In this document: piece after piece, positions 8,954 to 62,299 of the stretch | How positions within the stretch are numbered: position 1 is the stretch's first letter | How the letters are laid out: each line of letters begins with the position of its first letter | NCBI GenBank assembly: GCA_013416795.1 | Contig: RQSC01000026.1 | Span: 738,126 to 802,125 of the forward strand | DNA: 64,000 bases | DNA from: Prasinococcaceae sp. CCMP 1430 | Lineage: Eukaryota > Prasinodermophyta > Palmophyllophyceae > Prasinococcales > Prasinococcaceae | Reading direction: 5' to 3' | Position numbers and translations under genes: made by a program | Notes under the pieces: generated by a model | What the model saw: only the letters and a program-made list of their open reading frames with translations | Databases searched by the model: none | Told to the model about the DNA's origin: nothing

Positions 8954-10146
8954 GCAAACCCCAAGGCACACCCGCCACACTCCCGATCGCACCGACCGGA
9001 CGCACACAAGCACACACACACACACGTGCCCACACACAATCCCCTCCCCCCCCCCACACACACAAACACCACACACGCACACACGCACACACGCGCACAC
9101 GCGCGCGCGCGCACACGACACGCGCGCGCGTCCGCGCGATGCGCACATTCGGATTCGCGCGCCTCTCGGCGCCTTTTCCCGGATTCCTCCCCGGGTCCCC
9201 CCCCCGTCGCCGGAACCCCACTCGATGTCTTGCATCGCATTCGCCGCCCTTCGCCCCCGGCGGCCCCCCGTTGGGATTCCGCCTTCCAACCGGCTTCGGG
9301 CGTTCCAACCCGGGGTTCCAACTTTCAACCCCATCCGATCCGCGCTTCGGCCCAAGCGCGCGCGGAAGCCGACGCGCGCCATCAAAACGCATCCGAGTCG
9401 GGGCAACGGTCACTAACGGCGCCCGACGCCGGGATGCCGTACGGCGGGACGCGTTTTGATGGGCGCGTGAGCGCACGTCAAAACGCACCCGATCGCGCGC
9501 CGGGCGCCGAGGGCGCGCGCGCGCGCGCGGGGGGGGGACGTCACAACGCAAGGCGCGCGGCAACGTCACAACGCAGGGCGCGCGTCAACGTCAAAACGCA
9601 CGGCGATTTTCCTTTTTTCTTTTTTCGGTGTTTCTTTTTCTTTTTCTTTTTCTTTTTCTTTTTCTTTGCGGGGGGGAATGCGGCGCGCGGACGCGGATGG
9701 GATGCGAGGACGGGCCATCAAAATGAGAGGTGACCATCAAATCGCAAGGAGGACGCTTTTGGATCGCGCGGGGCGGTGCGCGCGCGCGCGCGCGCGCGGG
9801 CGGTGGGCGGGAGGGGTGTGGGTGTCGGCTGCAGGAGGACATCCACGTGAACCTCCTGCCGGCCGAGCGCGCGATTTATCTGGAGGAAAGAGGGGGGGCG
9901 AGACGAGGCGAGACGAGGCGGGGTAGGGCCTGCCTGCGAGTGCGCGGGGCAGGGCGGGAGCGCGGTTTCCCGGGGGTGGGCCGGCCGCCGCAGCCATCGG
10001 TGGACCGTGCGTGAGGGCCGCGACCGACGCCACCATCGCGCTCGCCCCGCGTGGGAAAGACCCCCGCGCAGTCGAGCAAAGGCGCCGCGGCGAGTAGGTG
10101 GGTGGGTGAATAAAGGGGTTGGAGGCAGCGGCGGCAGCCCGCGGCG
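8954..10146. promoter_or_regulatory. Divergent spacer with (CA)n tract, (TTTTTC)n tract and eight TTTTGAYG-type elements
   Basis: No credible gene. It contains a (CA)n/(CG)n tract (about 9005-9130) and a TTTTTC hexanucleotide run (9631-9667). It also holds a cluster of the recurrent element, consensus GTGCGTTTTGAYGK: minus copies at 9379-9394, 9474-9489, 9539-9551 and 9561-9576 (both with GTTGTG), 9585-9600, 9715-9727 and 9734-9748, and one plus copy at 9448-9463. It lies between a minus gene and a plus gene, so it is probably a shared upstream region. Confidence 0.6.
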
Positions 10147-10857
10147 ATGCTGGACCCATCGGCCCCGGCGGCGGGTGCGCGACCTGCCGACAGAAGTCGC
10201 GCTGCGCCGTCGATGCGCAACCGGCAGCAGCACGCGAGTCCCAACGTCACCAACGCGCTGGCGTGGGACACGTCGGCGGCGGACAAATTCGACAGTCGCC
10301 GCTGGGACTGCACGGTACGCCATGACGGCTCGACCAACCCGGTGAGGCAGCTCGACCGCGTCACAGGCGAAGCGCGGCCCCGGATGAGCTATTCAGAACT
10401 GAACAAGTCCATGCAAATTCCCACCGTGTCGCGCAGGGAGCGCAAGGGCAGCCTGCGGTACATGTTCCCCGGAGCGACCGGTCAGCAGCCGCCGCCGCCC
10501 GAGGAGAAAACCCCGCCGGCGCTGAAGCAGGTGCACGGCTACAACATCATCAAGAATTCCAGCGGCGACAAGGATGCGGACAGCGCGTTCGCCGCCAAGG
10601 AGAGAGAGCAGTGGAAGCGCCGGAACACGCAGGCCCTCGCTGCAGTACCCGTGAACCAACGCGATCGCGGCTACAATGTGGTGAGCGGCGTGGAGTATGA
10701 CACGGAGCGTGCCGCGCGAGAGCAGAAGGCGGAGCGCGCCGCGCTCGACCGTCGTTACCACCTCGTGCGGCAAATGGCAGAGAAAGAAGAGGCGCGGCGC
10801 AACCAGCCGGTGCGACAGGACAAGCGCCTCGGCCTCGCCCCTCAATGGGTAAACTAA
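10147..10857 (+). CDS. Conserved-looking hypothetical protein
   Basis: Uninterrupted 236-aa frame from the ATG at 10147 to TAA 10855-10857. It is hydrophilic, with a Pro/Ala-rich start. Two similar short motifs (GYNIIKNSSG about 135, GYNVVSGVEY about 176) are followed by a charged helical C-terminus (ERAAREQKAERAALDRRYH) ending LGLAPQWVN. The spacing of repeated GYN motifs and the lack of signal peptide or membrane segment suggest a soluble structural protein, possibly cytoskeletal or ciliary, but I do not recognise the family. The stop is 213 bp from the convergent methyltransferase stop, and TGTAA occurs 74 nt past it (10931-10935). A second ATG (SMRNRQQH, residue 22) is an alternative start. 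Confidence 0.65.
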   Translation: MLDPSAPAAGARPADRSRAAPSMRNRQQHASPNVTNALAWDTSAADKFDSRRWDCTVRHDGSTNPVRQLDRVTGEARPRMSYSELNKSMQIPTVSRRERKGSLRYMFPGATGQQPPPPEEKTPPALKQVHGYNIIKNSSGDKDADSAFAAKEREQWKRRNTQALAAVPVNQRDRGYNVVSGVEYDTERAAREQKAERAALDRRYHLVRQMAEKEEARRNQPVRQDKRLGLAPQWVN

Positions 10858-11070
10858 TCCATTTTGACCCTGCTCTGAAGCGGCAGTGGCAGCTCGCGCG
10901 CGACGCGCGCAGCGACCGCCGTGCCCGTGCTGTAATATCCCCGTGTCAGGCGCCACGGACGTGCGGCGGCGCGTAGGGTGTACACGCGTGCACCGGCGCG
11001 AGGATCCGATGGTGTTTATTAGACTACAGTATATGTCTGCCTGTATATGGACCGCGGGATGTCATGGCGA

Positions 11071-13569
11071 TCAGCGGAGTGCGAACGCACGCGACACGCA
11101 TTCCTCGTAGTCTGGTCGGCCGATGATATAGTCTTTGTATTCGACCCTTGTAAGGTCTGTTTTGACAGCTCCGAGCATGTCGGCCACCGACGACGTGTCC
11201 ACGAAGGGCTTAGCGCCGGCGGTAAAAGGGAACTCACGCGGCGGGCGCCAGCTGGGTTGGCCGCGCCAAATTTGTGTATATCCATGCGTCCACAACAGTT
11301 GGAGCACAGCGAAGGAGGTGGGCCTGTCGATGTGCGATAGGCGCGGTCGCTGTGTCAGGTGACGGACCACGTCCGTGGGTTGCGGGCGCGCGCGCGCAGC
11401 CACGCGCGGCATATCGAGCCGAAGGCGCACACACCTGTCGCCGGTCTCAAGTATGACCCAGCACGGCGGCTGTTCCGCGAGCCACGCAGTAGCAGAGCTT
11501 AGAGCCAAAAATTCCGAGTCCTCGACGTCGAACTTTGCCACTAGCACGTTTGGCCACTCAGACTGCGGAACGCGCGTGGTATGGCCTCCGTCGCCGCCTT
11601 CTGCACACGCCGCGCCGCGTAGGGCGTTGGCCAAGGTCGTAACGCCCGCGAGCGCTTTGGGCGGGCATCGATCCCTGGCAGTCATTGCCTTGCCATTGCG
11701 CGGGCCAAACATGCCTTGGCCGCCAAGATTGTTTTCGGTCTCAGTCGAAAAGCACACGCCGTCGTCTTTGCGTATCACTTGCACGCCCGCTGGCGAACTC
11801 ATCGCGAACGGAAGTAGTTTGGTGATGCCGACGCTTGTAGCGGGGGGGGTACGAACAGGGCCGGTGGAAGAGGCGTGCCCTGTAGCGTTCGAAGATGCCG
11901 CATCCGCCGCGGCGATGAGTGCCATCTCCTTCGCCAGGCCGGCAGCGAGAACGTTGGCAGCCGCGACTGCTGCGTTCGACGCGAGCCCCTCGACGCCGAA
12001 GATCGGCACCTGTGGGGGCAACGCCGCGCGCAGTGGTGCCAGCCAATCGCCAATGTTGGTCCCGACGTCAAGGAATGCAGGCCCGCCGCACGCCAGACCT
12101 TGGGGCCAGCGCAGCCCTGTGGTCGGATCAAGCGTGCCGACATCATCAGCGAGTATTTCTTGGCCGTGCACTGCATCGGATCGCACATCAATGCTGGCTT
12201 TTGCGTCCCCATGTCGAAGGCTTTCAGGTTCGCCCTCGTCGTTTGGGAACGGGGACGTAGCAGGAGCAGTGCGCTTGCGGAGCTTGGCTGCGGTCCGCGC
12301 GGCGTGCGCGAAGGCGCGCGGCACCCACGACCACAGATCTTTCTCCCATCTGAAGCCCGTCACAAATTCATTGCTCACCAAGTCATCTGCCCATGCGCAC
12401 GTTTCGATGGCCGCCACCCGTGCTTGCTGGTAGCTCGAGCTTGCGGGCAGCGTGAGGTTTTGCGTGGCGCAATTGAGGGGACGGCTTTGAATCGCCGTGG
12501 CGATCGTGCGCAAGGCGCCAGGGCCGCCAGCAAGCGCGCGCGCCTGCGAGCAGAACGATCAAGGCAGCATTAGCAGTCACAGCAGTCACACGAAAGGGGA
12601 GAGGGATAAAAAAATACGTCGATCGCGGGTGTGATCACACGGTGAATGGTGTTGCCAGTCAGCGCAGATTGCGGTGCCGCGCCGGTGCGCACGCATGAGA
12701 ACGCTTTGCTTGACGAGGTGTACGCGCGCGCTTACCACGGACGACGCGTTGCCTCTCTCGGCGACGGCAAACGTCATCTGCGGAATGTTGGCATGAAAGG
12801 CATTGAAACGCTTGTCCCCGCCGCTGTACAGCAGCTGAGCCGGACCGTTGCGCTTGTCATCCACAATGGTGCGTTGGGCGAGCCGTGCAGTTGCCGCCAG
12901 CTGGTTGAGCTCCGCCACCGAGCTGCTCAGTGTGGCAGGCGTGAGGTCTATCCAGCCGTAGTCTGCTCGCACAACGTCCGTGTGTGCATTCGCCGAGCGC
13001 ATCGCGCCACGAGACATCCCGCGAATGCGATCAGCGCTGCTGCTGTCGCGGCGCGCCATCCCATGCCAACTCGCGGCCGTGCGGCCAGATGACAGATTGC
13101 CGGCGATACTCGTCTCGACGGTGCCAGCAAGCGCAAAGATCTCGCGCACCATGCGCACCCGTCGTGCGCGCTGCGCAGTGTCAAACGCGCGCACCTGCGC
13201 AGCACGCGCGACCACAGCGGCCGCGTGTTCGCGAGCGGTGGCGTTTTGCGCCGCGCCAACCGATGGACCAACTCTGGCCACAGTCACGCTCTTCACTTGG
13301 AATGGCGTTGCAGCGCTGGGATCGGACGCCTTCTCGAGCGCGCGCGCGCTCGCATCGCCGAAGGGCGTCACGAAGAGGTCTGCCCGCGGCAGCGGGCGTC
13401 GGGATGCGGTGCCGCCAAGCAATGCCGTCCACGCGAATGGAAATGTCTCGGCGCCACCAGCAGCATCGGCGAGCAGCCCCCTACTCTCGCGTTGGTGCCC
13501 GCCCGCTCCTCGCGCCTCGCCTGCGAGCAGCACGAGCACGCCGCGCGCCGCTGCGCCCGCGGCCGCCAT
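11071..13569 (-). CDS. FkbM-like (Methyltransf_21) protein with long N-terminal region
   Basis: Two exons, 12736-13569 and 11071-12543, joined across a 192-nt intron (donor GTAAGC, acceptor CTCGCAG). Both are phase 0, giving 768 aa (GNASSV|ARALAGG). The C-terminal half carries the SAM-binding motif FLDVGTNIGDW (about 435), an acidic strand end PIFGVEG, and the late motif AKFDVEDSEFLAL, all typical of FkbM-family O-methyltransferases on sugars or secondary metabolites. The start is the ATG at 13569 (MAAAGAAARGVLVLLAGEA), which looks like a signal peptide or anchor. The N-terminal 280 residues resemble no family I know and contain several N-x-S/T sites. A secretory or Golgi location is inferred. 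Without splicing this would look like two unrelated genes. Confidence 0.75.
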
Positions 13570-14166
13570 GCGCGCGCCCGCGCGCGCGCATCGCCGGCCA
13601 AGCCTGGCTCGCCCAGTGCCAGCCGCCACCGCAGCCTCAGGGTACCGAACGCGCGCCCGTCAGGGCGCGCGCACTGTGCCGCCTTCCCCTCAAACACACA
13701 CCCTGCCCCACCCTCCTGGTACCAGGCACTGTCAACAGCGCGCTGTAATTTTTGGCGAACAGCCAATTTCCCGGCGGTGCGCGCGGGCGGGCGCCGGTGC
13801 GCCTGCGCGGGCGCCCGGCACGCGGGCACGAATCGGCGACCGGGCGGGGTGAGGACGCTCAGCAGCGCACCGGGCGTGCTCCGCACGTGCGCCTGCGGGC
13901 GGGCGGGTGGGTTAGGGGATGCGTGCGTGTGTGTGTGGTGTGTGGTGGGTGCGGCGCTGCGGCCGAGCGTGGGCGTGATGGAACGCGCAGAATTTATTTC
14001 GCGCGCGGGAAATTGCACGAGCCCTCCCAGGGGTGGGGGCGTGCTGGCTTGGGCGCCGCGCTCAGCGCGCCGATGACTGACTGTCCTCGGTGGCATGCTG
14101 TGACTCTGGCGAGGACTAGCACCAGACGGCTCTCGCCGTTTGCTCGGCGCGAGGCGGCGCGACGAG
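13570..14166. other. Spacer between two minus genes
   Basis: It holds the 5' flank of the methyltransferase gene and the 3' flank of the ankyrin gene. Apart from a short (TG)n-like tract near 13925-13950 and alternating GC runs I see nothing; frames across it have poor codon usage. Confidence 0.6.
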
Positions 14167-14988
14167 CTAGCGTCCGTCAGCTGACGACGACGACGGCAAC
14201 GGCGACGAAGATCCGGCGCTGCGTAGCATGGCGGCGATATCGCCGTGGCCATTCTCCTCGGCCACCTGCAGAGCCGTGGTCCCGTTCGAATCGCGCCTGG
14301 ACGTGTCGGCGCCTGCTTTGATCAACACTTCCACGCATTCGCGGTGGCCACGCATGGCGGCCACTGCGAGGGCGCTGCACACATCAGGTAGGTCCTGATA
14401 CCAAAATGGAGAATCGCCCGAATAATACGTCGCGTCTGCATTTTCTCCGCGTTCGAGAAAAAGCTGGACAACGTCCGACACGCCCTCACGCGCCGCGGCT
14501 AGTATGAGGTCGTCAAAGTTTCCTCCAAACTGAGTAGACATGATCTGCTCGGTAAGCCGGCGCAGGATGTCCCGCGCCACGTCGCGCCCCTCACGTGCCA
14601 TGCGCACGGCGGCCGCGTTGGATCCGAGCGCGCGCGTTGCGAGCAGCATCGCCCCGCGCACGTTCCCTGCCCGGGCTCTGAAATTGCCGGAGCCCCCGGC
14701 GACGTCGGCGTCAAACACCTCGGTCCCCGGGCGCGCGAAGCTGAACGATGCCTTGGCCGCCTTGCACAGTACATAGTCGATTTGATCGCCAAAGCCATCC
14801 TCCACGCGCCATGTCACGAGCCAGCGGACGGCGGCCCGCGCCGATTCGAGCTCAGCGCGTGCCGCACGCACAGCGGCCACTGAGACGCCAAGCGCCTGCG
14901 TAGCGAGCAAGAGCGCCTGGCGCGCGCGCTCCGCGCGCGTCGCGTCGTCGCCGCCACCCCGCCCCTGCTCCGCCACGCCAGCGGACAT
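14167..14988 (-). CDS. Ankyrin-repeat protein
   Basis: 273 aa from the ATG at 14988 (MSAGVAEQGRGG); the frame is open further upstream but that overlaps the divergent promoter. The first 170 residues contain two similar helical modules, ALLLATQALGVSVAAVRAAR and AMLLATRALGSNAAAVRMAR, each followed by a hydrophobic/charged helix. The rest is ankyrin-like: FDDLILAAAREGVSDVVQLF, then ALAVAAMRGHRECVEVLIKAGA, then GTTALQVAEENGHGDIAAML. It ends in a Ser-rich tail. A protein-interaction role is all that can be inferred. It shares a 290-bp divergent promoter with the small membrane protein gene. Confidence 0.7.
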   Translation of the reverse strand: MSAGVAEQGRGGGDDATRAERARQALLLATQALGVSVAAVRAARAELESARAAVRWLVTWRVEDGFGDQIDYVLCKAAKASFSFARPGTEVFDADVAGGSGNFRARAGNVRGAMLLATRALGSNAAAVRMAREGRDVARDILRRLTEQIMSTQFGGNFDDLILAAAREGVSDVVQLFLERGENADATYYSGDSPFWYQDLPDVCSALAVAAMRGHRECVEVLIKAGADTSRRDSNGTTALQVAEENGHGDIAAMLRSAGSSSPLPSSSSADGR

Positions 14989-20392: not shown

Positions 20393-21522
20393 CACAGCGG
20401 CCGGCGCCCGACCGATCGCCGGCGATCACTTGCCGCACCGGATGATACAAGCGCGGCGTTGCCGCGTCGCGCGGCCCGGGAGAAGGCACGCGCCTGTGAA
20501 GGGGGAGCGGCGACGGGCAGGCAGGGAGGCACGCGCACCGAAGGCGCGCGTCTATGGAGAGGGGCGGCGGCCCGCCGCCCAGCAGGGTGGGTGGGTGGGG
20601 CGCGCGCGCGCTCGGGCCCCGCTGTGTGGCACCTTTCCCTCTCCTCCGGCCACCGAGTCCGAGATCGCGTGCTTTTTGACCTCATTATCCGAATGCGCGT
20701 GCTTTTTGACGAGCGCGAAGGAAGGGGCTGAGGTGCACGTGCTTTTTGGTACGGGCCTGGGGCGCGTGCTTTTTGACGTGGCAGCGCGCGACGGTCCAAA
20801 TGCGGCCGAAATTCGGCGGCAGTTCCCCGGGGCGCCGGGCCGGCGCGCACAAGGCGGCGCGGCGTCCGGCGGTCACCGCCTGGCCGCTCATCCTCATCTC
20901 TTCGGCGGCGGCGGACGCGGCGGCGGCCGCTTCGGCGGCGGCGGCGGCAGGTACTGACTCATTAGGAGCGAGCAAGAAACGCACTCTTTGTACACGACCA
21001 CGACGCCCGCCGCGCCCACCGCCGCGCGCGAGCGATCCGCGCCTCCGCCTCGAGCGCCAGCACCGCCCCGACGACGCGCCTCCCACCCCCGCCCGGCCCC
21101 CCACACACGAGGGCAGCCGCGCCACGCACGCAGCTGGCTCCACCGAGGGGGTGGCCACACACAGGTGCCGACGCGCACCTGGCAGAGCATCCCACCCTCC
21201 CTTTCCCTTGAGCTGTTCCGTGGATGGGCCACGGACATTCCGGCTTTAGGCTGGGACTTAGTCTGTATAAACCCGGGTATTTCTATATAAACCCGGGTAT
21301 TCCAAACCCTTACTCAGCGCGCGCGGAGGGTGCGCAGCGGCGGCGGCCGGCGGCCGGCGGCCGCCGGCTGCCGCAGGCCCGCCAGGCAAGGCGCCGCTGC
21401 GGTGTCGTCGTCGTCCGCCCCCGTCCGTGGCACCACCGCGCTGTGGCTCCTGCGGCGTCCGGTCCTGGGCGAAGAAACGGAGTGCCGAGTCAGACTGCTC
21501 CAGGGGAGCTCTTTCGCCAGTG
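20393..21522. promoter_or_regulatory. UPF2 / coiled-coil divergent promoter with four GTGCTTTTTGAC elements and a TATA tandem repeat
   Basis: No gene seen. Four copies of CGTGCTTTTTGAC-like sequence lie in plus orientation at 20668-20683, 20698-20713, 20738-20753 and 20765-20780. Two tandem 20-bp units, TCTRTATAAACCCGGGTATT, occupy 21262-21281 and 21282-21301, about 220-260 bp before the plus-strand ATG. The second contains CTATATAAACCC, a plausible TATA box. Confidence 0.6.
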
Positions 21523-24500
21523 ATGTCAGACCGATCACCGACCCCGGGGTCGATGCGCACGCCGATGTCGTCGTCGACGGTCGAGGGCGCATCGGCAACT
21601 CTTGCCGATGACGCCCAGACGGCCTACTCGACGTACTCCTCCTACATGCGCAGCAGACCTCTGCCGTCATCGGGCTTGCGCGGCTCTGGGACTGTGGGGA
21701 GCCACCGGACGCGCGACTTTGGATCGGACGCGATGACCAAGCCTGCAGACTGGCGTGCCCCGCGCGACTCCAAGGCGCTGGCGCGAGCACTCGCGACGCC
21801 GCTTGGCACGGGCAGCTCGCGCCATCCCGGTCTGCTGCGCTCGGCCGAGACGCCTGCGTCGGGCGCAGCGTCTGGCATTGACACGCTTTACTCGTCACAT
21901 GTGGCAAGGGAGAGCGCGGCGTCGCTCAGCGCGGCCTTCGAGGGCAAGGCCGCACTTGAGGCCGCGCTCGCGGCCAAAGGGGCGGCGGAGCAGGCGCTGC
22001 GAGACGAGAATGCCTTGCTTCGCGAGGCGCACCGCAAGGCTTGCGAGGATGCGCGTGTGGCGGCCGAGAAGGCGGCCGCGGCCACGCGCGAGGCGGAGAC
22101 CACGGCCGCAGAAATTGCGAGGGCGAAGGCGGCAGTTTCCACCGCCGAGGCTGAGGCGCGAGAGCGTGCGGCACCACTCCAGATGCAGCTCCGCGAGGCC
22201 ACTGAGATCAGCCGCGTGAACAAAGCGGCGTGCGAGGAGGCGCGGTCACGATGCGCTGAGGCCGAGACCGTCGTAGAGGACATCCGCCGGGCAATGACGG
22301 CTACTGAGGCCAGGTGTGTGTCGGAAGTCAAGGACGCCCGCCACGATGCCGACCTCGCGCGCGGCGAGAGCGACCGCTTGCGAGAGGAGGCGGAGCGCCT
22401 GCGGCGCGAGGTCGCCCTCTTGGACGAGAATGTTCACGACGCCATGACCAACGCGGCAGCGGCCGAATCTCGCGCCAAGGTTGCGGAGGAGGCCGCCATG
22501 CTAGTTCGTACCGCGCGTTCGGATGAGGCGACCAGGCGCGCGGCCGCCGAAGACCGTGCGGCCGCGGCCGAGCAAACGGCGAAGTCGTTGGCCGCCGAGC
22601 GCGACGCCGTGGCAGAGGCGCTCCGCGCTGCGCAACGCGTCGCCGAGGAGAAAACTGGCGCGCTCGAACGGCTCAAGCGCGCGCTCGAGGAACAAACAGC
22701 CTCCACGAGGGAGGCTATCGCGGCGGAACGGGCCACAGCAGAGCGCTGCGCGCATGCAGAACGTCAGGCTGCCGCCGCCGTCGAGAATGGTGAGAGTCTT
22801 CGCCGCGTGCTGCAGGATCGTGGCGACTCTATGGAAGTTCTGGAGGCGGACCTGGCAGCGACCAAGGCAGATGCCGCGCGCCTTCGCCTTGCCGTCGAGG
22901 AGGCAACATCGCGAACTGAAGAGGTCCGCGAGCGGATGGCAAATGCGGACGAGGAGCGTGGGCGCGCGCTGGCGGCCGCGCGGCAGGCGCAGGCTGAGAC
23001 GACTCGATATGAGAGCGAGCTCGAAGCGCTCAAAGATGAGCTGAAGGACTCGTACGCGGCGGCCAAGCGCGATCAGGAGCGCGCAGAACGTCATCGCACC
23101 GAGGCAGAGCAATTGATCGCCTCGCGAGATGGGGCACGCGAAGACCTCGCGGCTGCGAGCGAGGAGGCCAAGGCCAGGACTGCACGCATCCGGGAGCTCG
23201 AGCTCTCCACGCAGTCGCTCCAGCGTGACCTGGACAGCTTGAAGGCCGCGGCAGAAGCTCAAGAAGGGCATGCGAATGCTCGCATTGCAGAAGCGAGCAG
23301 TGCTGTCGAAGCCACGCGCGCAGAGGCCGCCAGTGCAGAAGAACGGACCGCGCGTGCCACTTCAGAGTGCACGGCCGCGCACAAGCGCATCGCGGCACTC
23401 GAGTCTCGCGTGTCGAGCTTGCAGTCTGAGGGCAGGAAGAGCCAGAGCGCGGCTCGCGCTGCCAAGCGGCGCGTTGATGATGATCTGGCCGAGGCGCTGG
23501 CAGAATGCGAGGAGCTCAGGCAGCGCGCGGAGATTGCCTCAGCGCGCGCCCTGGACGCCGAGGGTGCGCGCGACAAGGCCATCGAGGCCGCTGAAACAGC
23601 GGCTGTCGCGCAGCAGCATGCCGAAAAGCTCGCTGCGCAGCGTGAGGAGGCGATGTCCAACATGCAGAGCACAGCCAGGCGTGCACGCGAGGAGGCCGAG
23701 CGCAGCAGGCGCGAGGCTACCGAGGCGCGCGAGGCCGAGGCAAGGGCTGAACGCGCGCGGGGCGAAGTGGACGCCGCGCGCGAGGAGGCGGAGCGGCTGG
23801 CCGAGGAGGCTCGCCAGGAGTGCCTCAAGGCCGAGTTCGACAAGGCGCAGCTAGAAGCCAAGGTCAAGCGCGTCGAGGCAAACGCTCAGGATCACACGAC
23901 TGCCTTGGGCGCAGCGGAGGCAGATGCCGCGCAGGCGTGGGCGCTGGCCGAAAAACGTGAGCGCGAAGTAGCGAGTTTGCGTGCCGACCTCGACAGCGCT
24001 AAGCACGAGGTGTCCACCTCGCGTGCGGCAGCTGCCGCCGCGGCTGACGACGTCGCCAGACATCGCGCAGATGCCGAGTCGACGCGTGCAGTTAGCGCGA
24101 GGGAGAGTGAGCAGCGTGTCCTCGCCGAGCGGCGGGCCGAGGAGGCTGACAGCTCGGCCGCAGCCACAAACGTGCAGCTCAGCAAGCTCGAGTCCGACAT
24201 CGCGCGCATGCGCAACGAGGTTGCTGAGTCTGCTGAGGCTACGCGGCACGCACGTAGGCATGCGGCTGACAGGGATGCCAGGATGATTGCCATGGAGGCC
24301 GCCATCGCCGAGCGTGACGCTGCCACCGCTGAGCTCGGGCGTATTCTCGATGACAAGTCCCAAAGACTCGCGACGTTGGAGAACTCGCTCGAGGCGCAGC
24401 GCGCGCTGTCTGAGAAAGCCACTGCGCGCATTCAAACGTTGGAGGGCGACCTCGCGCATGAGAGGGAGGGTGTGCGTACGAGCGACGCGCGCGCGTCAAA

Positions 24501-26493
24501 GCTCGCGGAGGAGAAAGACGGCGCCGTGGCAGACGCAACTGCCGCACGCAGCACGCTGGCAGCGCGCGACACAGCGATTGCAGCTGCGCGCGCAGAGGCC
24601 GACACGCTACGCAAGGAGAGGGACTCGTTGCGTGCCGAGTTGCGATTTCGAAAGTCCGCAGCAGAGGAGCTGGCAAACGAGCGCGGCGAGCGTGCTGCCG
24701 AGGCGGACGAGGCGTTGCGCGATGCTCGCGCAGCAACGCAAGCGCTCGCGCGTGCCAAGGCACAGGTCGAGACAGCCAAGGCCGAGGCTGCGCGCGCATC
24801 TGGCGAAGCCGCAGCTGCGCGTGAGAAGGCCGACGCGGCTCTTGCCCGCGCTGCCGAGGAGCACGCGCGTGCCACCGAAGCGCGCGACGCTCTCCGCAGG
24901 CTCGGCTCGGACGCGCGGAGGCTCGGTGCCGCTACCGCAGCGGCCGATGAGGCGGCCAAATCCGCGCGCGCGCGGGCCGAGGCGGCTGAGAAGGAGCTTG
25001 CAGCGCTGCGCAACGCCGCCGGGGAGCGTAGCGCGCACGATCGCTGGAACGGGCCGCTGATGCGGGGCGTGGCCGATGCCGCAGTGGCGGAGAGTGGCAC
25101 AGCTGGCTCAGACGACTTGACCGCAGCGCTCACGGCAGCACGCGCGGTCTGCGACGCGCTCGCAGACAGCCTCGGTGACTGTCGAGTATGCTATGCAAGA
25201 TCTGAGTACAACCCGGCGAGGGATGCCATTGAGCTCCGCCTGATGCACGTATCGGAGAATGGCCACGCCTTGGCTGCTGCCAGTGAGGCAGGGCAGGCTT
25301 GGGCCTCGGCCGAGGCACTGCCGCTCGTGGCGACCGAAAGCCCCAACAGCTGTGCGGTGGATGGAGCCATGGGAGCCGGTGTCAGATCCTTCCTGCCTCA
25401 TAGCTGCGCGGCATATCGCTGCATCCAGCGCGCTGAGGCCGAGGCTGGCGACGAGTGTCTGTTCCCCTCGTCAGTGTACCTGCGGGACGCGCTCGCGGCC
25501 GCTCTTCCCAAGTGTCTGACGTACGAGCGCGACCCGGAGATGCCCAGTGGCACCTTTATGGCTGTCGCTAGTGGGCAGTCGAGAAGCGGATGCCTACTGG
25601 TTGTGACCTCGCCGACGCGCCCTAACGGCGCGTTGACGGTGCCGGAAGTCGCCGCAACCCACGAAGCCGCAGCGGCAGCAGCAGCGGCGTACGATAAAGT
25701 GTCGGAGCGTTCGCTGGCGGTTGTCGCGCGCGGCGTGGCGCTGGCGACGTCTGCATTTGCCTCCGCCGAGGAGGCCAAGGCGGCGGATCCCAGCGGTCAC
25801 CGCGCACACCGACAGGCCGTGCAGGCGGCGTCGCAGATGCGCGGCGTGGAGGCGCAGCGCGGCGACTTGCAGGCGATTTTGCACTCGACGGATGGTCTGT
25901 GCGCGCTTGCGGAGCTCGGCGCGATGGTGCGCGTGCCGCCGGCGGTGGTACTGGTCGTGTGGGCAACGCTGGCCCTCTGCGATGGCGTCGAGACGCTCCC
26001 AGCCCTCGGGAGCGGCTCTGCCGGCATCGACGACGGGGCTCCGCGCACGCCCATGCGCGGACTGGGCGGGTTGTGGGAGTCGCTGCGCACCCGCTTGGGA
26101 GTCGCCACGGCCTCCCATGCAGCCGTGTCGCTGGCGGAGCGCATGGCGGCGTTCGCGATTGATCCCGCCGATGACCACTCGGCCGCGTACTCGGCGTTTG
26201 CAGCCGCGCGTGGGGAGCTGGGCCCTGCGGACGCTGGCAAGGCCGGGCGCGCGGTGGCGGCGCTCTACGCGTGGACGTGCGGCTCGCTGGCCCAATGGCA
26301 GCTCGCAGGCCTGTCCGAGTTCAGCGCAGCGGCGCTCGAAGGCGCGGGCTCGTCGACCAAGACGGCGCGCTCAGCTTCGTCTGAGCGCGCGAGCGTTGAA
26401 GGAGTCTTCGGGTCCACCGCCGAGCTCAGCGCAGAGGGGGTGCGATCGCTGGAGCAAGAGTTCGGTGAGGCGTCAAAACTCACCGTTGACTGA
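21523..26493 (+). CDS. 1,656-aa coiled-coil protein with C-terminal globular domain
   Basis: Uninterrupted frame; I prefer the ATG at 21523 (MSDRSPTPGSMRTPMSSS) over upstream non-ATG codons. The first 130 residues are Ser/Thr/Pro-rich and disordered. Residues about 130-1190 are continuous Ala/Glu/Arg heptads. Residues about 1200-1656 are not coiled: they contain DCRVCYARSEYNPARDAIEL, a GTFMAVASGQSRSGCLLVV strand pair reminiscent of a GAF-type fold, and VPPAVVLVVWATLALCDG. The last recalls helical segments flanking dynein-type stalks, which is a weak impression. A scaffold role (centrosome, basal body, axoneme or Golgi) is inferred. No membrane anchor, unlike the minus-strand coiled coil at 4.8-8.3 kb. 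Convergent with the transaldolase-like gene (300 bp). Confidence 0.75.
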   Translation: MSDRSPTPGSMRTPMSSSTVEGASATLADDAQTAYSTYSSYMRSRPLPSSGLRGSGTVGSHRTRDFGSDAMTKPADWRAPRDSKALARALATPLGTGSSRHPGLLRSAETPASGAASGIDTLYSSHVARESAASLSAAFEGKAALEAALAAKGAAEQALRDENALLREAHRKACEDARVAAEKAAAATREAETTAAEIARAKAAVSTAEAEARERAAPLQMQLREATEISRVNKAACEEARSRCAEAETVVEDIRRAMTATEARCVSEVKDARHDADLARGESDRLREEAERLRREVALLDENVHDAMTNAAAAESRAKVAEEAAMLVRTARSDEATRRAAAEDRAAAAEQTAKSLAAERDAVAEALRAAQRVAEEKTGALERLKRALEEQTASTREAIAAERATAERCAHAERQAAAAVENGESLRRVLQDRGDSMEVLEADLAATKADAARLRLAVEEATSRTEEVRERMANADEERGRALAAARQAQAETTRYESELEALKDELKDSYAAAKRDQERAERHRTEAEQLIASRDGAREDLAAASEEAKARTARIRELELSTQSLQRDLDSLKAAAEAQEGHANARIAEASSAVEATRAEAASAEERTARATSECTAAHKRIAALESRVSSLQSEGRKSQSAARAAKRRVDDDLAEALAECEELRQRAEIASARALDAEGARDKAIEAAETAAVAQQHAEKLAAQREEAMSNMQSTARRAREEAERSRREATEAREAEARAERARGEVDAAREEAERLAEEARQECLKAEFDKAQLEAKVKRVEANAQDHTTALGAAEADAAQAWALAEKREREVASLRADLDSAKHEVSTSRAAAAAAADDVARHRADAESTRAVSARESEQRVLAERRAEEADSSAAATNVQLSKLESDIARMRNEVAESAEATRHARRHAADRDARMIAMEAAIAERDAATAELGRILDDKSQRLATLENSLEAQRALSEKATARIQTLEGDLAHEREGVRTSDARASKLAEEKDGAVADATAARSTLAARDTAIAAARAEADTLRKERDSLRAELRFRKSAAEELANERGERAAEADEALRDARAATQALARAKAQVETAKAEAARASGEAAAAREKADAALARAAEEHARATEARDALRRLGSDARRLGAATAAADEAAKSARARAEAAEKELAALRNAAGERSAHDRWNGPLMRGVADAAVAESGTAGSDDLTAALTAARAVCDALADSLGDCRVCYARSEYNPARDAIELRLMHVSENGHALAAASEAGQAWASAEALPLVATESPNSCAVDGAMGAGVRSFLPHSCAAYRCIQRAEAEAGDECLFPSSVYLRDALAAALPKCLTYERDPEMPSGTFMAVASGQSRSGCLLVVTSPTRPNGALTVPEVAATHEAAAAAAAAYDKVSERSLAVVARGVALATSAFASAEEAKAADPSGHRAHRQAVQAASQMRGVEAQRGDLQAILHSTDGLCALAELGAMVRVPPAVVLVVWATLALCDGVETLPALGSGSAGIDDGAPRTPMRGLGGLWESLRTRLGVATASHAAVSLAERMAAFAIDPADDHSAAYSAFAAARGELGPADAGKAGRAVAALYAWTCGSLAQWQLAGLSEFSAAALEGAGSSTKTARSASSERASVEGVFGSTAELSAEGVRSLEQEFGEASKLTVD

Positions 26494-27890: not shown

Positions 27891-28675
27891 TCTGCCCGCA
27901 CTCGTGCACCCACACCCACGGTGACTGGGTGCCAGCGACGGCGCCCGAATCCACGTCAGCACCCCTCGCGCCAAAAAAAAAAAAAATCCCTGGCACCCGA
28001 CCCACCCAATGGAATCGAGCATCTCGCACGGCGACTTTTGGACCCTGATTTATTTTTGTCCCTTTCGAAAATGTCGAAAAAGGATCCAAATAAAAAACGC
28101 GTGCAAAACCCAAAATCGAGCGAACGCAGGTTCGGGTTGAGAACCGTCGAGACGACGAACGACGAGGCGGGCCGGCACCGTGTCGCTCCCAAATCGGATC
28201 AAATACTTGGTCGATCGCTTCGCTCATCCGCCCATCGCCGCCCGGACGTCTCCCCGAACACGGATTTAAATCCGGTGTCCAGCCCCTCCATTTTCATTTT
28301 CCTTTTCCATTTCCGTCATCCCCACCAAAAAAAGCCGTTGGCGACGCGCGCGTGCGTTTTGATGGGAGCTCGTGCGCTCGTCGCGACGCTCCGCCGTCGC
28401 GCATTTCGCGCGCGCGCGCGCGGGGTGCGGGCGGACCTGCGGAAACGCGGAGCGGAGTGGACGAAATGCGGAGCGGCGGAAAGTCGCGCGCGCGAACGGC
28501 CGCGCGGCAGCGCGTGGCCGGTGGGTGGCGTGGGGGGTGGCGCAGGGGACTGGCTTAGGAACTGGAATGCTGGACGGCGATGATGGCATGACGGCGGTGT
28601 CTCAGCGGGCGCCAAGCCGGACGCTCAGGGGGGCGCTGAGCAGCCGCCCCCGCGGCGGCCACCGAGGTGTCGCCG
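27891..28675. promoter_or_regulatory. Transaldolase-like / kinesin divergent promoter
   Basis: Locally AT-richer DNA (28020-28330) in a GC-rich window, with an A-run at 27973-27986. One good copy of the recurrent element lies in plus orientation, CGTGCGTTTTGATGGG at 28351-28366, 310 bp upstream of the kinesin ATG. Confidence 0.5.
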
Positions 28676-33260: not shown

Positions 33261-33753
33261 GGTGTCCCCCGGGCGCCGTCCCAGAGCAGAGGCAGCGTTC
33301 CTCCCCCCCCCACCCGGCCACGAAAGAAGCACGTGCCCAGGCGCGCCGCCGCTGCGGCGGCGCCGGCCGCCGTCGCCGCAGCGGCACCGCGCGGGCCCGC
33401 AGGGACGCGTGGGGGGGAAGAGACGGGGATGGACCGGCGGCGCCGACGGGCAGGATGGCGGCGAGGGGCCGGGCGCGTGGGCTTGTGGGCTGGCTGGGCC
33501 GCGCGCGCGCGCGGTCCCGCCTGCTGCTCGCGCTGTGGCGCCTGAAGCCGACGCCGCAGGTCCGCAGATGGATTCGAATTCGAAAGCAGCGTAGTTTTGA
33601 TGGACCATTCCAAATGCATTGTCAAGAAAACGCGGTGATGAAATCGACGTGTGAGTGTTGTGTGTGTGCGCTTCGGTGCGCCACAGGCGCGGCGCTCACG
33701 CGACGCGCCACAGCGCGCACGCCGGCGGCGCGGCGCCCCGCGCCGTCCCGGTG
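33261..33753. promoter_or_regulatory. Hydrolase / LRRC56 divergent promoter
   Basis: 493 bp with one recurrent-element copy in plus orientation, GTAGTTTTGATGGACC at 33591-33606, followed by CCATTCCA. It lies about 150 bp upstream of the LRRC56 ATG. The rest is GC-rich without clear signals. Confidence 0.5.
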
Positions 33754-37875: not shown

Positions 37876-38496
37876 NNNNNNNNNNNNNNNNNNNNNNNNN
37901 NNNNNNNNNNNNNNNNNNNNNNNNNNNNNNNNNNNNNNNNNNNNNNNNNNNNNNNNNNNNNNNNNNNNNNNNNNNNNNNNNNNNNNNNNNNNNNNNNNNN
38001 NNNNNNNNNNNNNNNNNNNNNNNNNNNNNNNNNNNNNNNNNNNNNNNNNNNNNNNNNNNNNNNNNNNNNNNNNNNNNNNNNNNNNNNNNNNNNNNNNNNN
38101 NNNNNNNNNNNNNNNNNNNNNNNNNNNNNNNNNNNNNNNNNNNNNNNNNNNNNNNNNNNNNNNNNNNNNNNNNNNNNNNNNNNNNNNNNNNNNNNNNNNN
38201 NNNNNNNNNNNNNNNNNNNNNNNNNNNNNNNNNNNNNNNNNNNNNNNNNNNNNNNNNNNNNNNNNNNNNNNNNNNNNNNNNNNNNNNNNNNNNNNNNNNN
38301 NNNNNNNNNNNNNNNNNNNNNNNNNNNNNNNNNNNNNNNNNNNNNNNNNNNNNNNNNNNNNNNNNNNNNNNNNNNNNNNNNNNNNNNNNNNNNNNNNNNN
38401 NNNNNNNNNNNNNNNNNNNNNNNNNNNNNNNNNNNNNNNNNNNNNNNNNNNNNNNNNNNNNNNNNNNNNNNNNNNNNNNNNNNNNNNNNNNNNNNN
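37876..38496. other. 621-nt assembly gap (N)
   Basis: A run of N separates the ZPR1-like gene from dihydroxyacid dehydratase. It hides their divergent promoter and the first exon(s) of the dehydratase. Confidence 1.
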
Positions 38497-40408
38497 GAAG
38501 CCGCGCGGCCGCACGTGCGTGCGCCGCAGCGCCGCGCGCTGCGAGGGGCACACGCAGGACATCACGCCGGCCGACACGGACGGCATCAACAAGTGGAGCG
38601 CGCGCGTCACGCAGCCCAAGTCGCAGGGCGCCTCACAGGCGATGCTCTACGCCACCGGCCTCCAGGAGGCCGACATGGACAAAGCGCAGGTGGGGATCTC
38701 GTCCTGCTGGTATGAGGGTGCGTTGGACTCGCGCGGATGCGTGCATGCGCTTGCGCGCGTGCACGTGAGAGGGAGGGCAGCGAGCGAGAGTACGCGGTTG
38801 CTCGTGCTGACACACACGCGCACACGCGCACGCACGCGCGCGCGCACGCGTGCCCACGCGAGCATAGGCAACCCGTGCAACAAGCACCTCCTCGACCTCG
38901 GCGGCTACGTGAAGGAGGGCGTGGAGGAGGCCGGCATGGTGGGCTTCCGCTTCAACACCATCGGCGTGTCGGACGGCCTGAGCATGGGCACCGAGGGCAT
39001 GAGCTACTCGCTGCAGAGCCGCGAGATCATCGCCGACTCGGTGGAGACGGTGTGGTCCGCGCAGTGGTACGACGCCAACATCTCCCTCCCCGGCTGCGAC
39101 AAGAACATGCCGGGCGTGCTGATGGCCATGGGGAGGGTGAACAGGCCCGCCATCATGGTGTACGGCGGGACCATCAAACCCGGCTGCTCGGCCACGGGTG
39201 AGCCGCTGGACATCGTCAGCGCCTTCCAGAGCTACGGCCAGTACATCGCGGGCGCCATCGACGAGGAGGAGCGCGCGGACATTGTGCGCAACTCGTGCCC
39301 CGGCGCGGGCGCCTGCGGCGGGATGTACACCGCCAACACGATGGCGTCGGCCGCCGAGGCGCTCGGCATGACGCTGCCATACTCGTCGTCCATCCCCGCG
39401 GAGGACCCGCTGAAGATTGACGAGTGCAGGAAGGCCGGCGTGGCGCTCAAGGCCATGATGGAGAAGAACCTGTGCCCCCGGGACATCATGACGAGGCCCG
39501 CCTTCGAGAACGCCATGACGCTCATCATGGCGCTGGGCGGCTCCACCAACGCCGTGCTGCACCTCATCGCCATCGCGCGCTCGGTGGGCATCGACCTGAC
39601 GCTCGATGACTGGCAGGCAAACTCGGACCGCGTGCCCTTCATCGCCGACCTCAAGCCGTCGGGCAAGTACGTGATGGAGGACCTGCACAACGTTGGCGGC
39701 ACCCCCGCGGTGCTCAAGTTCTTGCTCAAGGAGGGCATGATCGACGGCAGCTGCATGACGGTCACCGGCAAGACGCTCGCCGAGAACCTCGCGGGCTGCC
39801 CTGACCTCTCTGAAGGCCAGGACATCATCAGGCCGCTCGACCAGCCCATCAAGGAGACGGGCCACCTGCAGATCCTCTACGGTAACCTCGCGCCCGAGGG
39901 CAGCGTGGGGAAGATCACCGGCAAGGAGGGCTTGTATTTCCAGGGTACCGCGCGCGTCTTCGACCAGGAGGAGGCCATGCTCACCGCGCTGGCTGAGGAC
40001 CCGATGAGCTTCAAGGGTACCGTCATCATCATCCGCTACGAGGGGCCCAAGGGGGGGCCCGGCATGCCGGAGATGCTCACGCCGACCTCGGCCATCATGG
40101 GCGCGGGCCTCGGCAACGACTGCGCGCTGCTCACGGATGGGCGCTTCTCGGGCGGCTCGCACGGCTTCGTGATTGGCCACGTGTGCCCCGAGGCGCAGGA
40201 GGGCGGGCCCATCGCGCTCGTGCGGGACGGCGACGTGATCACCATCGACGCGGAGAAGCGCGTGATGGACATGGACGTCTCCGACGAGGAGCTCGCCCGG
40301 AGGAAGGCCGAGTGGTCGCCGCCGCCGCTGCGGGCCACGCGCGGCACGCTGCACAAGTACATCAAGAACGTCAGCAGCGCGAGCACCGGCGCCGTCACCG
40401 ACGAGTGA
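38497..40408 (+). CDS. ILVD: Dihydroxyacid dehydratase (5' end in gap)
   Basis: Exons ~38558-38717 and 38868-40408, intron GTGCGT...CATAG (150 nt), phase 1, restoring [17 protein letters not shown]. Hallmarks: [28 protein letters not shown] and [16 protein letters not shown] with Fe-S cysteines; [40 protein letters not shown]. The enzyme dehydrates 2,3-dihydroxy-isovalerate and -methylvalerate to the 2-keto acids of valine and isoleucine synthesis, normally in plastids. The N-terminal targeting peptide and the first 20-40 mature residues are lost in the gap. Sequence just before DITPADTDG ends in ACGCAG and looks like another intron's acceptor, so 38497-38557 is probably intronic. Confidence 0.92.
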
Positions 40409-55816: not shown

Positions 55817-56817
55817 GGCCTCGGCCTGGTGCGCGCGCGCTCCCTCCTCCCTTCCCTCTCTCTTTCTGTCTCCCTTCTCGCTCGCTTGCGCTCGCGCGGG
55901 GCGGTGCGAAGGGCCGATTGGCGCGCGCGAGAGAGCGCCCACCCCCCTCCCCCGCCGCGCGCAGTGGCACCCCGCCGAGGCGCGCGCCGCTCGCGCGCGC
56001 GCACACCGTCACCCTCGCGCGCACACGCGAGAGAGAGGACGGACACGCGCGTGCGCACACCCCGGCACACGCCGGCGCGCACGCTGCCAGCGCGCGTACA
56101 GCAGCCGGTTCGGACTCTCGCCCGCGCCGCCCAACAGCTCTCTCGCGCGCTTGCGCGCCCCTCGGGGAACCATTCCACATCAAAACGCATCCACAAAACT
56201 TCATGAGATTCAACTTAATTCGTTTCGACGTACGATGTCTCCCTCGAATATCCACGTCACATCTCATCTGCAAGGGAAAACGGTTTCAAACTATCGAGAT
56301 CAAAGTGGGATATCATCGCGAGAGGACGTCGTCGCCGCGGCGGGCGCCAGCGGCGCGGTTGACCGACGCCCGACGCGGCGCGGCGCGGCAAAAAAAAAAC
56401 AAAAAACACGTTAGACATCGTGGAACCATGTTCTGCAGGTTCTGAAACATGTATTTACACATACAAATGCGCGGGTCTCATTTCGAAATCTGCTACACAT
56501 TTTATTTTGATTTTGATTTTTTTTGCGCCAGGCGTCGGCTGCTTCTGGGCTGCTCCGCCCTGCGACGCCGGCAGGGCGTACAGACTTAAAAAAAAAAAAA
56601 CACGCAGCGGCGTGTGATTTGATGGCGGAACGCGCTAACCGTTGCTCCGATTCGCGCGCGCCGGCGTGCGTTTTGACGTGGTTTTTTTGTTTTTGTTTTT
56701 TCTTGGAGCGATGGAATCGGAATCAAAACCACGTCCGAGCGCCGCGCCACAGCGCGCGCGCGCGCAGCGGCGCGTACGCGTGGGGGCGCGGGCGGGCGGG
56801 GGCGCCGCGCGCGAGCG
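55817..56817. promoter_or_regulatory. PLAT-ankyrin / MAPK15 divergent promoter
   Basis: 1 kb with a locally AT-rich stretch (56400-56720). Recurrent-element copies: minus at 56175-56192 (CCACATCAAAACGCATCC), plus at 56611-56628 (CGTGTGATTTGATGGCGG) and plus at 56665-56681 (CGTGCGTTTTGACGTGG, 137 bp before the MAPK15 ATG). TATCATCGCG lies at 56311-56320. No gene seen. Confidence 0.55.
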
Positions 56818-59045: not shown

Positions 59046-59266
59046 GCTGTGGACATTGTCGGGCGTGGCGGCCGACGGCAGCGAGGCTCTCTGTAATTTC
59101 ATCTCAATCTGGCGATCACCTTCGCAGTCCACACACCAGCCCATCGCACCGCGTGACGCTGCGCGCAACGTGTCAAGCAAGCGCGCGACCTTATATGACA
59201 ACGTGCACTGCCAAGCTCGAGATTAGACTTGCTTTCTTTCACAAAGAGAGTCGCGGGGGCGCAACA
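59046..59266. other. Convergent 3' spacer
   Basis: 221-bp stop-to-stop spacer with TGTAA (59092-59096) for MAPK15; nothing clear for the BFR2 side. Confidence 0.6.
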
Positions 59267-61158
59267 TCAGTCCTCCTCGTCCGTGGACGTGGCGTAGTCC
59301 GGGAGATCCGCACGAGTGAAGACGCCCGGACGCTCGTCATCGTCCTCCTCCTCGGAGACCTCGACTGTCTTCCAGCCCATTTCGTCGTACTCGCCGTCGC
59401 TGCCGTCGTCGCCTTCGGCGCCTGCGCCGCCGCCCGCCGCGGTGCCCCCGTTTTGTAGAGGCGCGGCGTCGGCGCCGTCGCCATCGCCCGCCACGGCGAG
59501 CTGCTCACCGAAGAGTCCGTGGCGCAGGTACTCCATGAGCGGGTGCTCCTCCATGGGCACGGGGGGCATGAAACCCACGAGCTTGTCGATGGTGGTGAAG
59601 CGCAGCTTCCGGCCCTTGGACGCGCGCGTATCCACGCCACGGTCGATCTTCTTGCGGCGCTTGGCCGCTCGCGACGCCTCGCCACCTGCACCCGCGCCGT
59701 CGAGTCCGCTCTCGAGAAGCTCGCGCAACATTTGCTGGTACAGCTCGGTGTCATCGAAGCTCTCCGGGTCACGTGGCACGCCCGCGCGGCGCTGCCTCCC
59801 ACCGCCACTGCCCTGGGCGTCCACGTCGGCATCTATCAGCGCCGCCTCCCTCTGAGCCAAGGCGGCAGTCGCGTCGGGATGGCCGCCGATGGGGTTGGAC
59901 TGCGAGAGCGGCGTGCGCGCTCGCTCCAGCAGCCGCCGTCGCGCCGCGCCCGTCATCGACGCCTCGACCTGTTTGGACACGGCCTGGTTCAGCGCAGATA
60001 GCTGCCCGCTGCCGCCCTTGGCGGTGCGGCCAAGCGCGGTGGCGCCGCTCTCCAGCCTCGCTCGGCTGCCCCACTCGTCGAAGGCATTGGCGGCATAGGA
60101 TTCGACGGCGCGGCTGTGACGCGAGGCGGCGCGCCACGCGGTGGCGGTATCGGCGCCCGAGCCCGCGCCCGCGCCCGCGCCATCGAGCGCGCCCATGCCA
60201 GTTTCGGATGTACCCACCGCTGCCGCGAGCTCGCCGAGCACCGCGAAGGTCTTGGCGGCCTCCTCGGCGGCGGCGTCCAGCGCGCGCTCCACCCTCCCGC
60301 CAGCCCGGCGAACGATGCCGTGCGAGGCGTGGGCAGGCGGCACGCGTGAGGCGGCCCCCGCTGCGCGCTGTAGGAGGATTCGCAGCTCAAGACCGCGTTC
60401 CCACAGCAAGCGCTGCTGGCGCACGGCCTTCCCCCGCGCCACCTCCTCGCGCCGCCTCTTGCGCAGCGCCGCCACCTCGTCGGACTCGAGCGCGCTTGCG
60501 GCGCCCGCGCCGTCACCGCCGCCGAGCGTCTGCTGAAGCGCAGCGAGCGCGTCCTCGCCTTCGTCGCCCTCGCCATCATCGCTGCCGCTCAACTCCTGGT
60601 CGCTCTCACTGCCCTCACCAGGCTCGGCCTCGCCATCGCCATCGCTGCCGCCCTCGATGTCCGCCAGCGTGAGCCGCCTGCGCTGCCCCGTGGTCGCGCC
60701 GGCGGCGCCGGCGCCTCCGTCGAGGTAGTAGCCCGTGCCTTGGCGGCCGGTGGTGAACACATACCCCGGCCGCACGCCGCCGAAGCGTTTCGCGGGGATG
60801 AAGTCCTCGCGTTCGAGGTCGTCTAGCTCCATGCCCTCCGAGTCCGAGCCCGAGCCGGAGTCAGACCCGTCGCTGCCGTCCCACGGCGCGGCGCCGTCGC
60901 CATCGCCCTCTCCGATGCCGCGGCGGCGCACGCGCCCCGCGTACTCGGCGCCGTCGAGGTCAATGCCTGCACGCATGCGCTTTCGCTCGGGCGCGGCTCT
61001 CGCACGCCCCGATCCCGACGCGCCACCGGCACCGCGCACGGCGCCGCGCAGCGGGTCGAGCTCCTCGCCATGGCCGTCATCGCTGTCGCTGCCACTGTCC
61101 GACGCCGCCCCGCCGTCCGCCCCGACCGCCCGGCGCGCGCGGCCCGGCGCGTGACCAT
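59267..61158 (-). CDS. BFR2: BFR2/AATF (TRAUB domain) ribosome-biogenesis protein
   Basis: About 630 aa, a single frame ending STDEED at TGA 59267-59269. N-terminal acidic Ser/Asp/Gly stretches surround DLEREDFIPAKRFGGVRPGY. A central AATF-like helical region (LRKRRREEVARGKAVRQQRL, LWERGLELRILLQRA) follows. The C-terminal TRAUB region carries FDDTELYQQMLRELLESG, AAKRRKKIDRGVDTRASKGR, KLRFTTIDKLVGFMPP and LMEYLRHGLFG. Yeast Bfr2 and human AATF act in the small-subunit processome in the nucleolus. The start is unresolved: the coding frame has no ATG near its 5' end, while ATGs at 61158 and just upstream are in other frames, so a first exon or a sequence error is likely. Confidence 0.8.
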
Positions 61159-62299
61159 CTAAGAGACGGCATGCGCAGCAACTGTGCCCACGGGACCTCG
61201 CGCGAGCGCCGAGCGCGCGCGTGCGCACACCCCAGGCAGGCGCGCGGGCGCCTCCGGGACCACGCCACTCCGCGCGCGGTCGGTCGCTCTCGTCCTAAAC
61301 CCTAATATGTACAAACCCTAAACCCCTAACCCTAATGGGCGGGTGCGCGCGCGCCGGTGGGTAGGGTTGCGCGAGGGCTTTGGGCGGGGCGGCAGAAGGA
61401 GGAGCGGCGGGGGAGGCAGCGAGGGCGCGCGCGCAGCGGGCGTTGGCGAGGAGGGGAGGGGAGAGGAGGGGAGAGAGGGAGGGAGAGAGAGAGTCAGCGC
61501 GCATGCCACCGCTCGCGCACATGTCCGCGAGGCTCAGCAGCTCACCGCCGTGCCGCCCCGGCGCGCACTGTGGCACCCCCGCCGCCGCAGCAGCCCGCAG
61601 GCGCGTGCGCGCGCGCAGCCTCGCCGAGCGCGTGCCAGTTAAGGTTACAATGCCGGTATTAAGGGTTAGTAAGGCATGGAGATAGGGTTCGTTCCCCGCA
61701 TTGCTCTCCCGTGGGTATAGTTGACCAATTGCGAAGAATTGCGATGCGAGGAGGTAAATGATGGAACGTTTCGGGCGCGCACCGGCGCCAGCCGCCGGCG
61801 GCTGGCTGCGTCGTCTCCCCGGGGGTTTTTCCCCGGCCGAACGCGCCGCCCAAAACACATTCCGCGAATTGAAACACATTTCATTCCAATGCCAACCAAA
61901 ACCGTCGGTTTGCCAATCCGAAAATTTTGAGGCCATCAAAGTACACGCAGCCGCCGGGTGGTGAAAATCCCCAAAAGAAAAAAGAAAAAGAAAAAGAAAA
62001 ACGTCGGGAGCGAGCCATCGCAGCAACTCGCGGCGCTTCGCGTCTGTGCTCGTAGGGACAATGCCATCTCTCAGAAGTCACTTATGGCGGTGCTGCTACT
62101 CCGTCACTCGCGTCTATCAATCAATATCCAAGTTCTTCTTGTCGTGCGCGTCCTCGAGTGGTTGGCCGCCGCTGCTGGCGCTGCACGCCTGCACCTGCAG
62201 CTGCGCGACACGGCTCGCTCGCGACGTGCAATCGTTGAGCATGCGAAAGGAAGTGCTGTTCGTCAGCGGCACGCGGGCGGGTGCCGACGGCCGAGCCCG
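61159..62299. promoter_or_regulatory. Spacer upstream of BFR2 with telomere-like repeats
   Basis: It contains degenerate CCCTAAA-type repeats (61294-61335), a purine-rich (GGAGAG)n stretch (61450-61490), one weak recurrent-element match on minus (61932-61948), and an AAAAAG hexanucleotide run (61974-62001). This is also the 3' flank of the Q-rich gene. No gene recognised. Confidence 0.55.
61294..61335. repeat. Interstitial telomeric repeats (CCCTAAA type)
   Basis: CCTAAACCCTAA at 61294-61305 and ACAAACCCTAAACCCCTAACCCTAA at 61311-61335, split by a few bases. It lies about 140 bp upstream of the BFR2 start region, where it could act as a telo-box, a known plant promoter element for ribosome-related genes. 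Confidence 0.75.

Follow-up and report, generated by a model that had tools for sequence, protein, structure and literature searches.

A short asymmetric element with the core CGTTTTGAYG is probably the binding site of one sequence-specific transcription factor, which would use it, as single copies or as homotypic clusters, in the proximal part of a few per cent of the genome's promoters. This is one of two readings put forward in the first-pass annotation, and it is well supported by a genome-wide excess, a near-strict base specificity, the promoter-side and non-coding placement, and the homotypic clusters. The core within RTKCGTTTTGAYGG would be the DNA contact site of the factor, whose binding to this asymmetric site, located upstream of the transcription start, would raise or gate transcription. 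A site in a divergent spacer could serve either gene or both. From the observations on abundance, base preference, placement, and clustering we infer the binding of a protein, its action on transcription, the sense of this action, and the share of promoters.

The searches covered the 24.52-Mb assembly (145 contigs) including the window, by which we mean the whole 64,000-base stretch of DNA analysed (contig C72, positions 738126-802125). The 13-letter GTGCGTTTTGAYG is present 132 times as an exact match (63 on the plus and 69 on the minus strand) compared to a single match of the reversed pattern. A genome-wide search allowing one mismatch, as the first-pass annotation had proposed, gives 583 matches compared to 45 for the reversed control. 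Because the excess is found throughout the genome, the element is a real observation and is not confined to the window. Most exact sites have the ATG form (99 of 132) and the others the ACG form (33), while the purine version GTGCGTTTTGARG has only three matches genome-wide, all with G, against the 132 with a pyrimidine at position 12. Thus, this position is almost strictly C or T. The fuller consensus RTKC-GTTTTGAYG-G includes flank letters counted in matches to GTTTTGAYG, a search that held the two outermost letters to non-T and found 302 matches in the whole genome (49 in the reversed control). In the unselected flanks of the first 100 matches listed, which are from contigs C1-C62 only, T is found at position -2 and G at position -1 in 64 cases each, position 0 is C in 77, and the core is followed by G in 54. 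Since the T-K-C context is missing from 47 of these 100 matches, some of them are probably due to chance. The element is over-represented beyond composition and has position-specific base preferences, as is characteristic of transcription-factor sites.

PMC7455551 gives a genome size of 25.3 Mb, a GC content of 69.8%, and 7,139 genes for Prasinoderma coloniale. The GC content of the window region is about 68%. If the gene number is as in Prasinoderma coloniale, 132 exact sites, or 583 at up to one mismatch, in about 7,000 genes would correspond to a few per cent of the promoters.

The window itself is a hot spot: its 64 kb contain nine sites at up to one mismatch, compared to about 1.5 expected from the genome average. 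Dinucleotide shuffles lead to an expectation of 0.13 for these nine matches of GTGCGTTTTGAYG, and to 3.1 for the 17 matches found at up to two mismatches. A weight matrix, which was written by hand from the exact sites and the flank preferences, detects 20 matches at a score of at least 11 (mean of 2.75 in 20 shuffles). About 18 copies had been listed here by the first-pass annotation. We recovered 14 of the 18 at up to two mismatches, with coordinates agreeing within a few bases; the other four are weaker, 9715 (13.8) and 33591 (12.9) being scored by the matrix and 20738 and 61932 falling below 11. The matrix adds four copies at 11155, 26470, 45396, and 56218 (scores 11.5-16.0). The following copies and matches were recorded:

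9379..9392, minus strand: copy ATGCGTTTTGATGG, the best-scoring form (matrix score 26.2)
9449..9462, plus strand: copy ACGCGTTTTGATGG (score 21.7)
9475..9488, minus strand: exact copy GTGCGTTTTGACG at 9476-9488 (search at up to one mismatch and matrix)
9538..9601, minus strand: three copies in a 25-base tandem array, two GTTGTG variants and one exact copy at 9589-9601 (repeat scan, search at up to two mismatches, and matrix)
9715..9728, minus strand: weak variant (score 13.8)
9734..9747, minus strand: variant copy TTGCGATTTGATGG (score 18.6)
20669..20779, plus strand: CTTTTTGAC-type copies at 20669, 20699, and 20766, with a weaker one at 20738 under the scan threshold (mismatch searches and matrix)
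26470..26483, minus strand: one-mismatch match in a long coding-scored open frame, probably due to chance (search and matrix)
28352..28365, plus strand: exact copy, 311 bases 5' of the first in-frame ATG (28676) of the kinesin-motor open frame (search and matrix)
33590..33603, plus strand: weak copy CGTAGTTTTGATGG upstream of the LRR-protein gene (score 12.9)
56177..56190, minus strand: copy ATGCGTTTTGATGT upstream of the minus-strand ANK+PLAT gene (search and matrix)
56218..56231, plus strand: weak variant ATTCGTTTCGACGT in the divergent spacer shared with the 56177 copy (score 14.9)
56612..56625, plus strand: variant copy GTGTGATTTGATGG (score 17.1)
56666..56679, plus strand: exact copy, 139 bases 5' of the likely ATG (56818) of a MAP-kinase gene, MAPK15/ERK7-like (search and matrix)
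61932..61946, minus strand: very weak copy from the first-pass annotation, upstream of the BFR2/AATF gene, absent at up to two mismatches or a matrix score of at least 11 and left out of the counts

Gene context was assigned not from transcripts but from a score of codon usage, for which ten stretches of the window with Pfam support served as training set. By this score, eight of the nine window copies with up to one mismatch are located in divergent spacers, a class comprising 8,056 of the 64,000 bases; the ninth is in a frame scored as coding. The promoter-side distribution described before holds. Context was also determined for 31 exact sites, which are those of the window and of the loci L031-L054. 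Loci L031-L050 comprise the first 21 entries on the list of ATG sites; L051-L054 were chosen for holding several sites and the sample is therefore not random. Fifteen of these sites are in divergent spacers, ten in tandem spacers (a class including possible introns), none in convergent spacers, two in coding-scored segments, in both cases at the segment edge, and four beside a locus end. Counted by spacer, the numbers are 12 divergent, nine tandem, no convergent, and three end. Random points, 4,000 per locus of any length, are distributed over coding (52%), divergent (11%), tandem (14%), convergent (5%), and end regions (18%). Exact sites are thus depleted in coding sequence (2 of 31 versus 52% of the random points, loci being equally weighted), and 15 of the 25 exact sites in classified spacers are divergent compared to about 37% of such random points. 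None of the 21 spacers with both flanks known is convergent in the score-based gene models. Since convergent regions account for about 17% of such non-coding random points, or about 21% by length, this result has a chance of about 0.02 or less. The distance to the nearest coding segment starting away from the site is between 38 and 911 bases for 25 of the 29 non-coding exact sites, and between 38 and 1,932 bases overall. This enrichment on the promoter side, together with the depletion in coding and convergent regions, is the placement expected of transcription-factor sites. The earlier statement that coding exons contain no copies does not apply to 26470, which is within a 1,740-aa coding-scored open frame, or to 11155, within a coding-scored stretch. 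Two-mismatch matches are also found in a convergent spacer (1859) and in a same-strand gap (58028). These few matches are about what chance gives.

The sites are clustered. In 13 of 34 groups, a second CGTTTTGA is found at a distance of up to 300 bp, and its density is 1.13 per kb in this range compared to 0.049 per kb at 600-1500 bp. The window copies at 9379, 9449, and 9475, and those at 56177, 56612, and 56666, are irregularly spaced, and tandem-duplicated arrays are present with periods of 25 bases (9538-9605), 30 bases (C51:117666-117779), and about 54 bases (in L024). The first-pass annotation had suggested cooperative binding from the clusters. The clustering is real and cooperativity is possible, but because several of the arrays are tandem duplications, clustering alone is no proof of it. 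The site regions of the ANK paralogues in L026 and L028 are 87% identical over 179 bases, and L037 and L047 align at 72% across 138 bases spanning the site. Both pairs are alike past the site and some copies are therefore duplicates and not independent, which counts against the transcription-factor reading. Further repeats were observed around two of the sites. In L031, perfectly identical 653-base stretches (3115-3767 and 4650-5302), whose starts are 1.5 kb apart, flank the site; they arose either by very recent duplication or as an artefact of the assembly. In L038, identical 115-base stretches (3808-3922 and 4097-4211) flank the element copy at 3995.

In having a short asymmetric consensus with one degenerate position, a promoter-side location, and clusters, the element resembles the homotypic transcription-factor site clusters of promoters, and its consensus matches no transcription-factor consensus that we know of. 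Plant W-boxes (TTGACY) are bound by WRKY and as-1/TGACG sites by bZIP proteins, the TTGAC or TGACG core being invariant. The minority ACG form of the element contains TTGACG. However, the GCGTTTT half belongs to neither site, and the ATG form, found in 99 of the 132 exact sites, breaks both cores, so that this identity was rejected. The same was concluded for the CHR element (TTTGAA) and the sites of CXC-domain proteins (LIN54, TSO1, CPP), whose core is TTYGAA or TTTRAA. They share TTTGA with the element, but in TTTTGAYG a pyrimidine and a G follow instead of an A, and a purine occurs only three times. Judged by title and start of the abstract, none of the papers listed for the core letters and for algal promoter motifs is on the element; those listed for the core letters look unrelated, and the letters most likely come from primers. 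If the genome is that of an early-branching green alga of the Prasinoderma type, which it resembles, we know of no published promoter element for it.

The genes next to the sites are a functional mix, which argues against a single pathway. In the window, 20 open frames were scanned and 11 have a Pfam match; the genes adjoining sites encode a kinesin motor, LRR, ANK+PLAT, AATF/BFR2, UPF2, and transaldolase proteins. The best solved relatives of the kinesin are KIF20A and KIF7. The kinase exon next to 56666 has the MAP kinase 6v6a as best PDB match (6e-42), which we take to be an ERK7. LRRC56 is not among the 60 PDB matches listed for the LRR gene, many of which are LRR proteins, and this name is therefore that of the first-pass annotation. 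Genes at the other site loci encode ribosomal proteins L13 and S8e, DUF1995+DnaJ, S41 peptidase, Rieske, anthranilate synthase, TPT, WAPL, TSO1/CXC, RRM, ANK, ARM, B9-C2, SepF, SHMT, EF-G, GTP cyclohydrolase II, cullin, LysM, and kinase+WD40 proteins. Of 40 site-locus proteins, defined as the coding-scored segments closest to sites or their next neighbours, 15 have no Pfam match or only one below the cut-off. Pfam and PDB searches gave no match for the open frames 4786-8631 (minus strand, internally repetitive) and 21271-26493 (plus strand) beside the two largest site clusters, nor for L024:9-917 and L052:2387-3589. A dedicated regulon should show a common function of the neighbours, and the lack of it counts against the transcription-factor reading. 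Two other features of the window were noted. GC content drops to 0.508 at 38001-40000 over a dihydroxy-acid dehydratase gene, a possible case of recent gene transfer, and a telobox-like AAACCCTAA is repeated at 61290-61340 between the BFR2/AATF gene and its neighbour. Telobox words are known from plant ribosome-biogenesis promoters. A structured RNA was rejected as a reading, the window having no Rfam match at the gathering threshold and no tRNA.

It is possible, if rather doubtful, that the site belongs to a general regulatory (pioneer) factor, an abundant protein that would clear nucleosomes and insulate or set up divergent promoters whatever the function of the genes. This explanation is contained in the transcription-factor reading as a special case. 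The mixed neighbours (among others L13, S8e, EF-G, cullin, anthranilate synthase, SHMT, triose-phosphate transporter, WAPL, and the B9 protein), the divergent share of the classified sites, and the lack of a preferred gene orientation all speak for such a factor. However, the exact sites, even with those at one mismatch, would account for only a few per cent of the promoters. The yeast factors Reb1, Abf1, and Rap1 are similarly used function-blind at many promoters, many of them divergent, but their sites differ in sequence from the element. In a more specific and unlikely version, a lineage-specific general factor would open often divergent promoters irrespective of gene function, and the preference for C/T (132) over A/G (3) before G would be caused by a 5-methyl contact through which TpG and methylated CpG are read alike. 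The observed/expected ratio of CpG is 1.24 in the window, and because CpG is not depleted, methylation-driven loss is not seen there.

The second reading of the first-pass annotation, a core promoter or initiator-type element of fixed position and direction, is very improbable. Two window sites are located 139 and 311 bases before a likely ATG. In addition, the 200 bases 5' of the motif are AT-richer than the 200 bases 3' in 26 of 34 groups (Wilcoxon p 0.005, binomial p 0.003), and this transition from AT-rich to GC-rich follows the motif orientation. However, the ten sites in tandem spacers are equally divided between those directed at the downstream gene and those directed away from it (five each), and only 7 of the 15 sites in divergent spacers point at the nearer coding segment. 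The distances to coding segments are widely spread, copies form clusters of up to five to eight, the 20669-20779 cluster precedes two TATAAA-like boxes by about 490 bases, and the 132 exact sites, or 583 at up to one mismatch, compare with about 7,000 genes if the gene number is as in Prasinoderma coloniale. The fixed gene orientation expected of a core promoter element was not found in tandem spacers, although the AT content of the flanks is directional. We cannot fully reconcile the flank asymmetry with the absence of an orientation preference; a purely orientation-free site does not explain the AT-richer 5' side, which counts against the transcription-factor reading. At 21262-21301, two head-to-tail 20-base units with TATAAACCCGGGTATT form a TATA-like box in duplicate, located 5' of the 1,740-aa open frame.

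That the element marks a regulon of ciliary or microtubule genes, in a lineage with cryptic flagella, was rejected as main reading and is very unlikely. In PMC7455551, Prasinoderma coloniale is described as having 217 flagellar proteins although flagella were unseen. Window sites are close to the kinase and the LRR protein named MAPK15 and LRRC56 by the first-pass annotation, a B9-C2 basal-body gene adjoins the site pair in L053, and 3 of 32 kinesin places have, in shared orientation, an exact site within the approximately 500 bases preceding the motor domain. However, one of these three kinesins is that of the window, whose relatives KIF20A and KIF7 do not make it a clearly ciliary motor, the LRR gene has no LRRC56 among its 60 listed PDB matches, and most annotated neighbours are non-ciliary. 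None of 11 tubulin places (10 over the cut-off) has an exact site within about 1.5 kb upstream, and for dynein heavy chains (DHC_N1) it is none or one of five, about 2.2 kb from the domain. Pfam matches of neighbours and the three motor and tubulin families thus gave weak hints only. Some cilium-related neighbours would also fit the RFX X-box and ciliary promoter motifs, but the element is not an inverted repeat and is not generally linked to ciliary genes. The families were compared by eye with the exact-site list, of which 126 of 132 positions were covered (all but six ACG sites on contigs after C93). For comparison, exact sites are found at 2 of about 100 protein kinase places and in 1 of 36 DEAD helicase rows (about 1.5 kb). 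A cell-cycle regulon was rejected, with exact sites within about 1.5 kb upstream at none of nine SMC and none of seven cyclin places.

An origin from a dispersed repeat, a transposon remnant, or low-complexity DNA could be suspected from the tandem arrays, the L037/L047 alignment, and an AT-rich dispersed repeat of about 246 bases, perhaps a small transposon, near two copies (L044:3636-3880 and L048:3378-3618, 88% identical in opposite orientation), but it is largely refuted and extremely unlikely, given that the 30 exact loci listed, set side by side on both strands as they lie, have no common flank past about 15 bases, that the reversed control gives one match, and that exact sites are depleted in coding sequence.

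If the genome does belong to an early-branching green alga of the Prasinoderma type, a sharply defined and common promoter-side element would provide a direct handle on one of its transcription factors. The element could then be compared with the sites of land plants and chlorophytes, which may tell which promoter vocabulary is ancestral in green plants.
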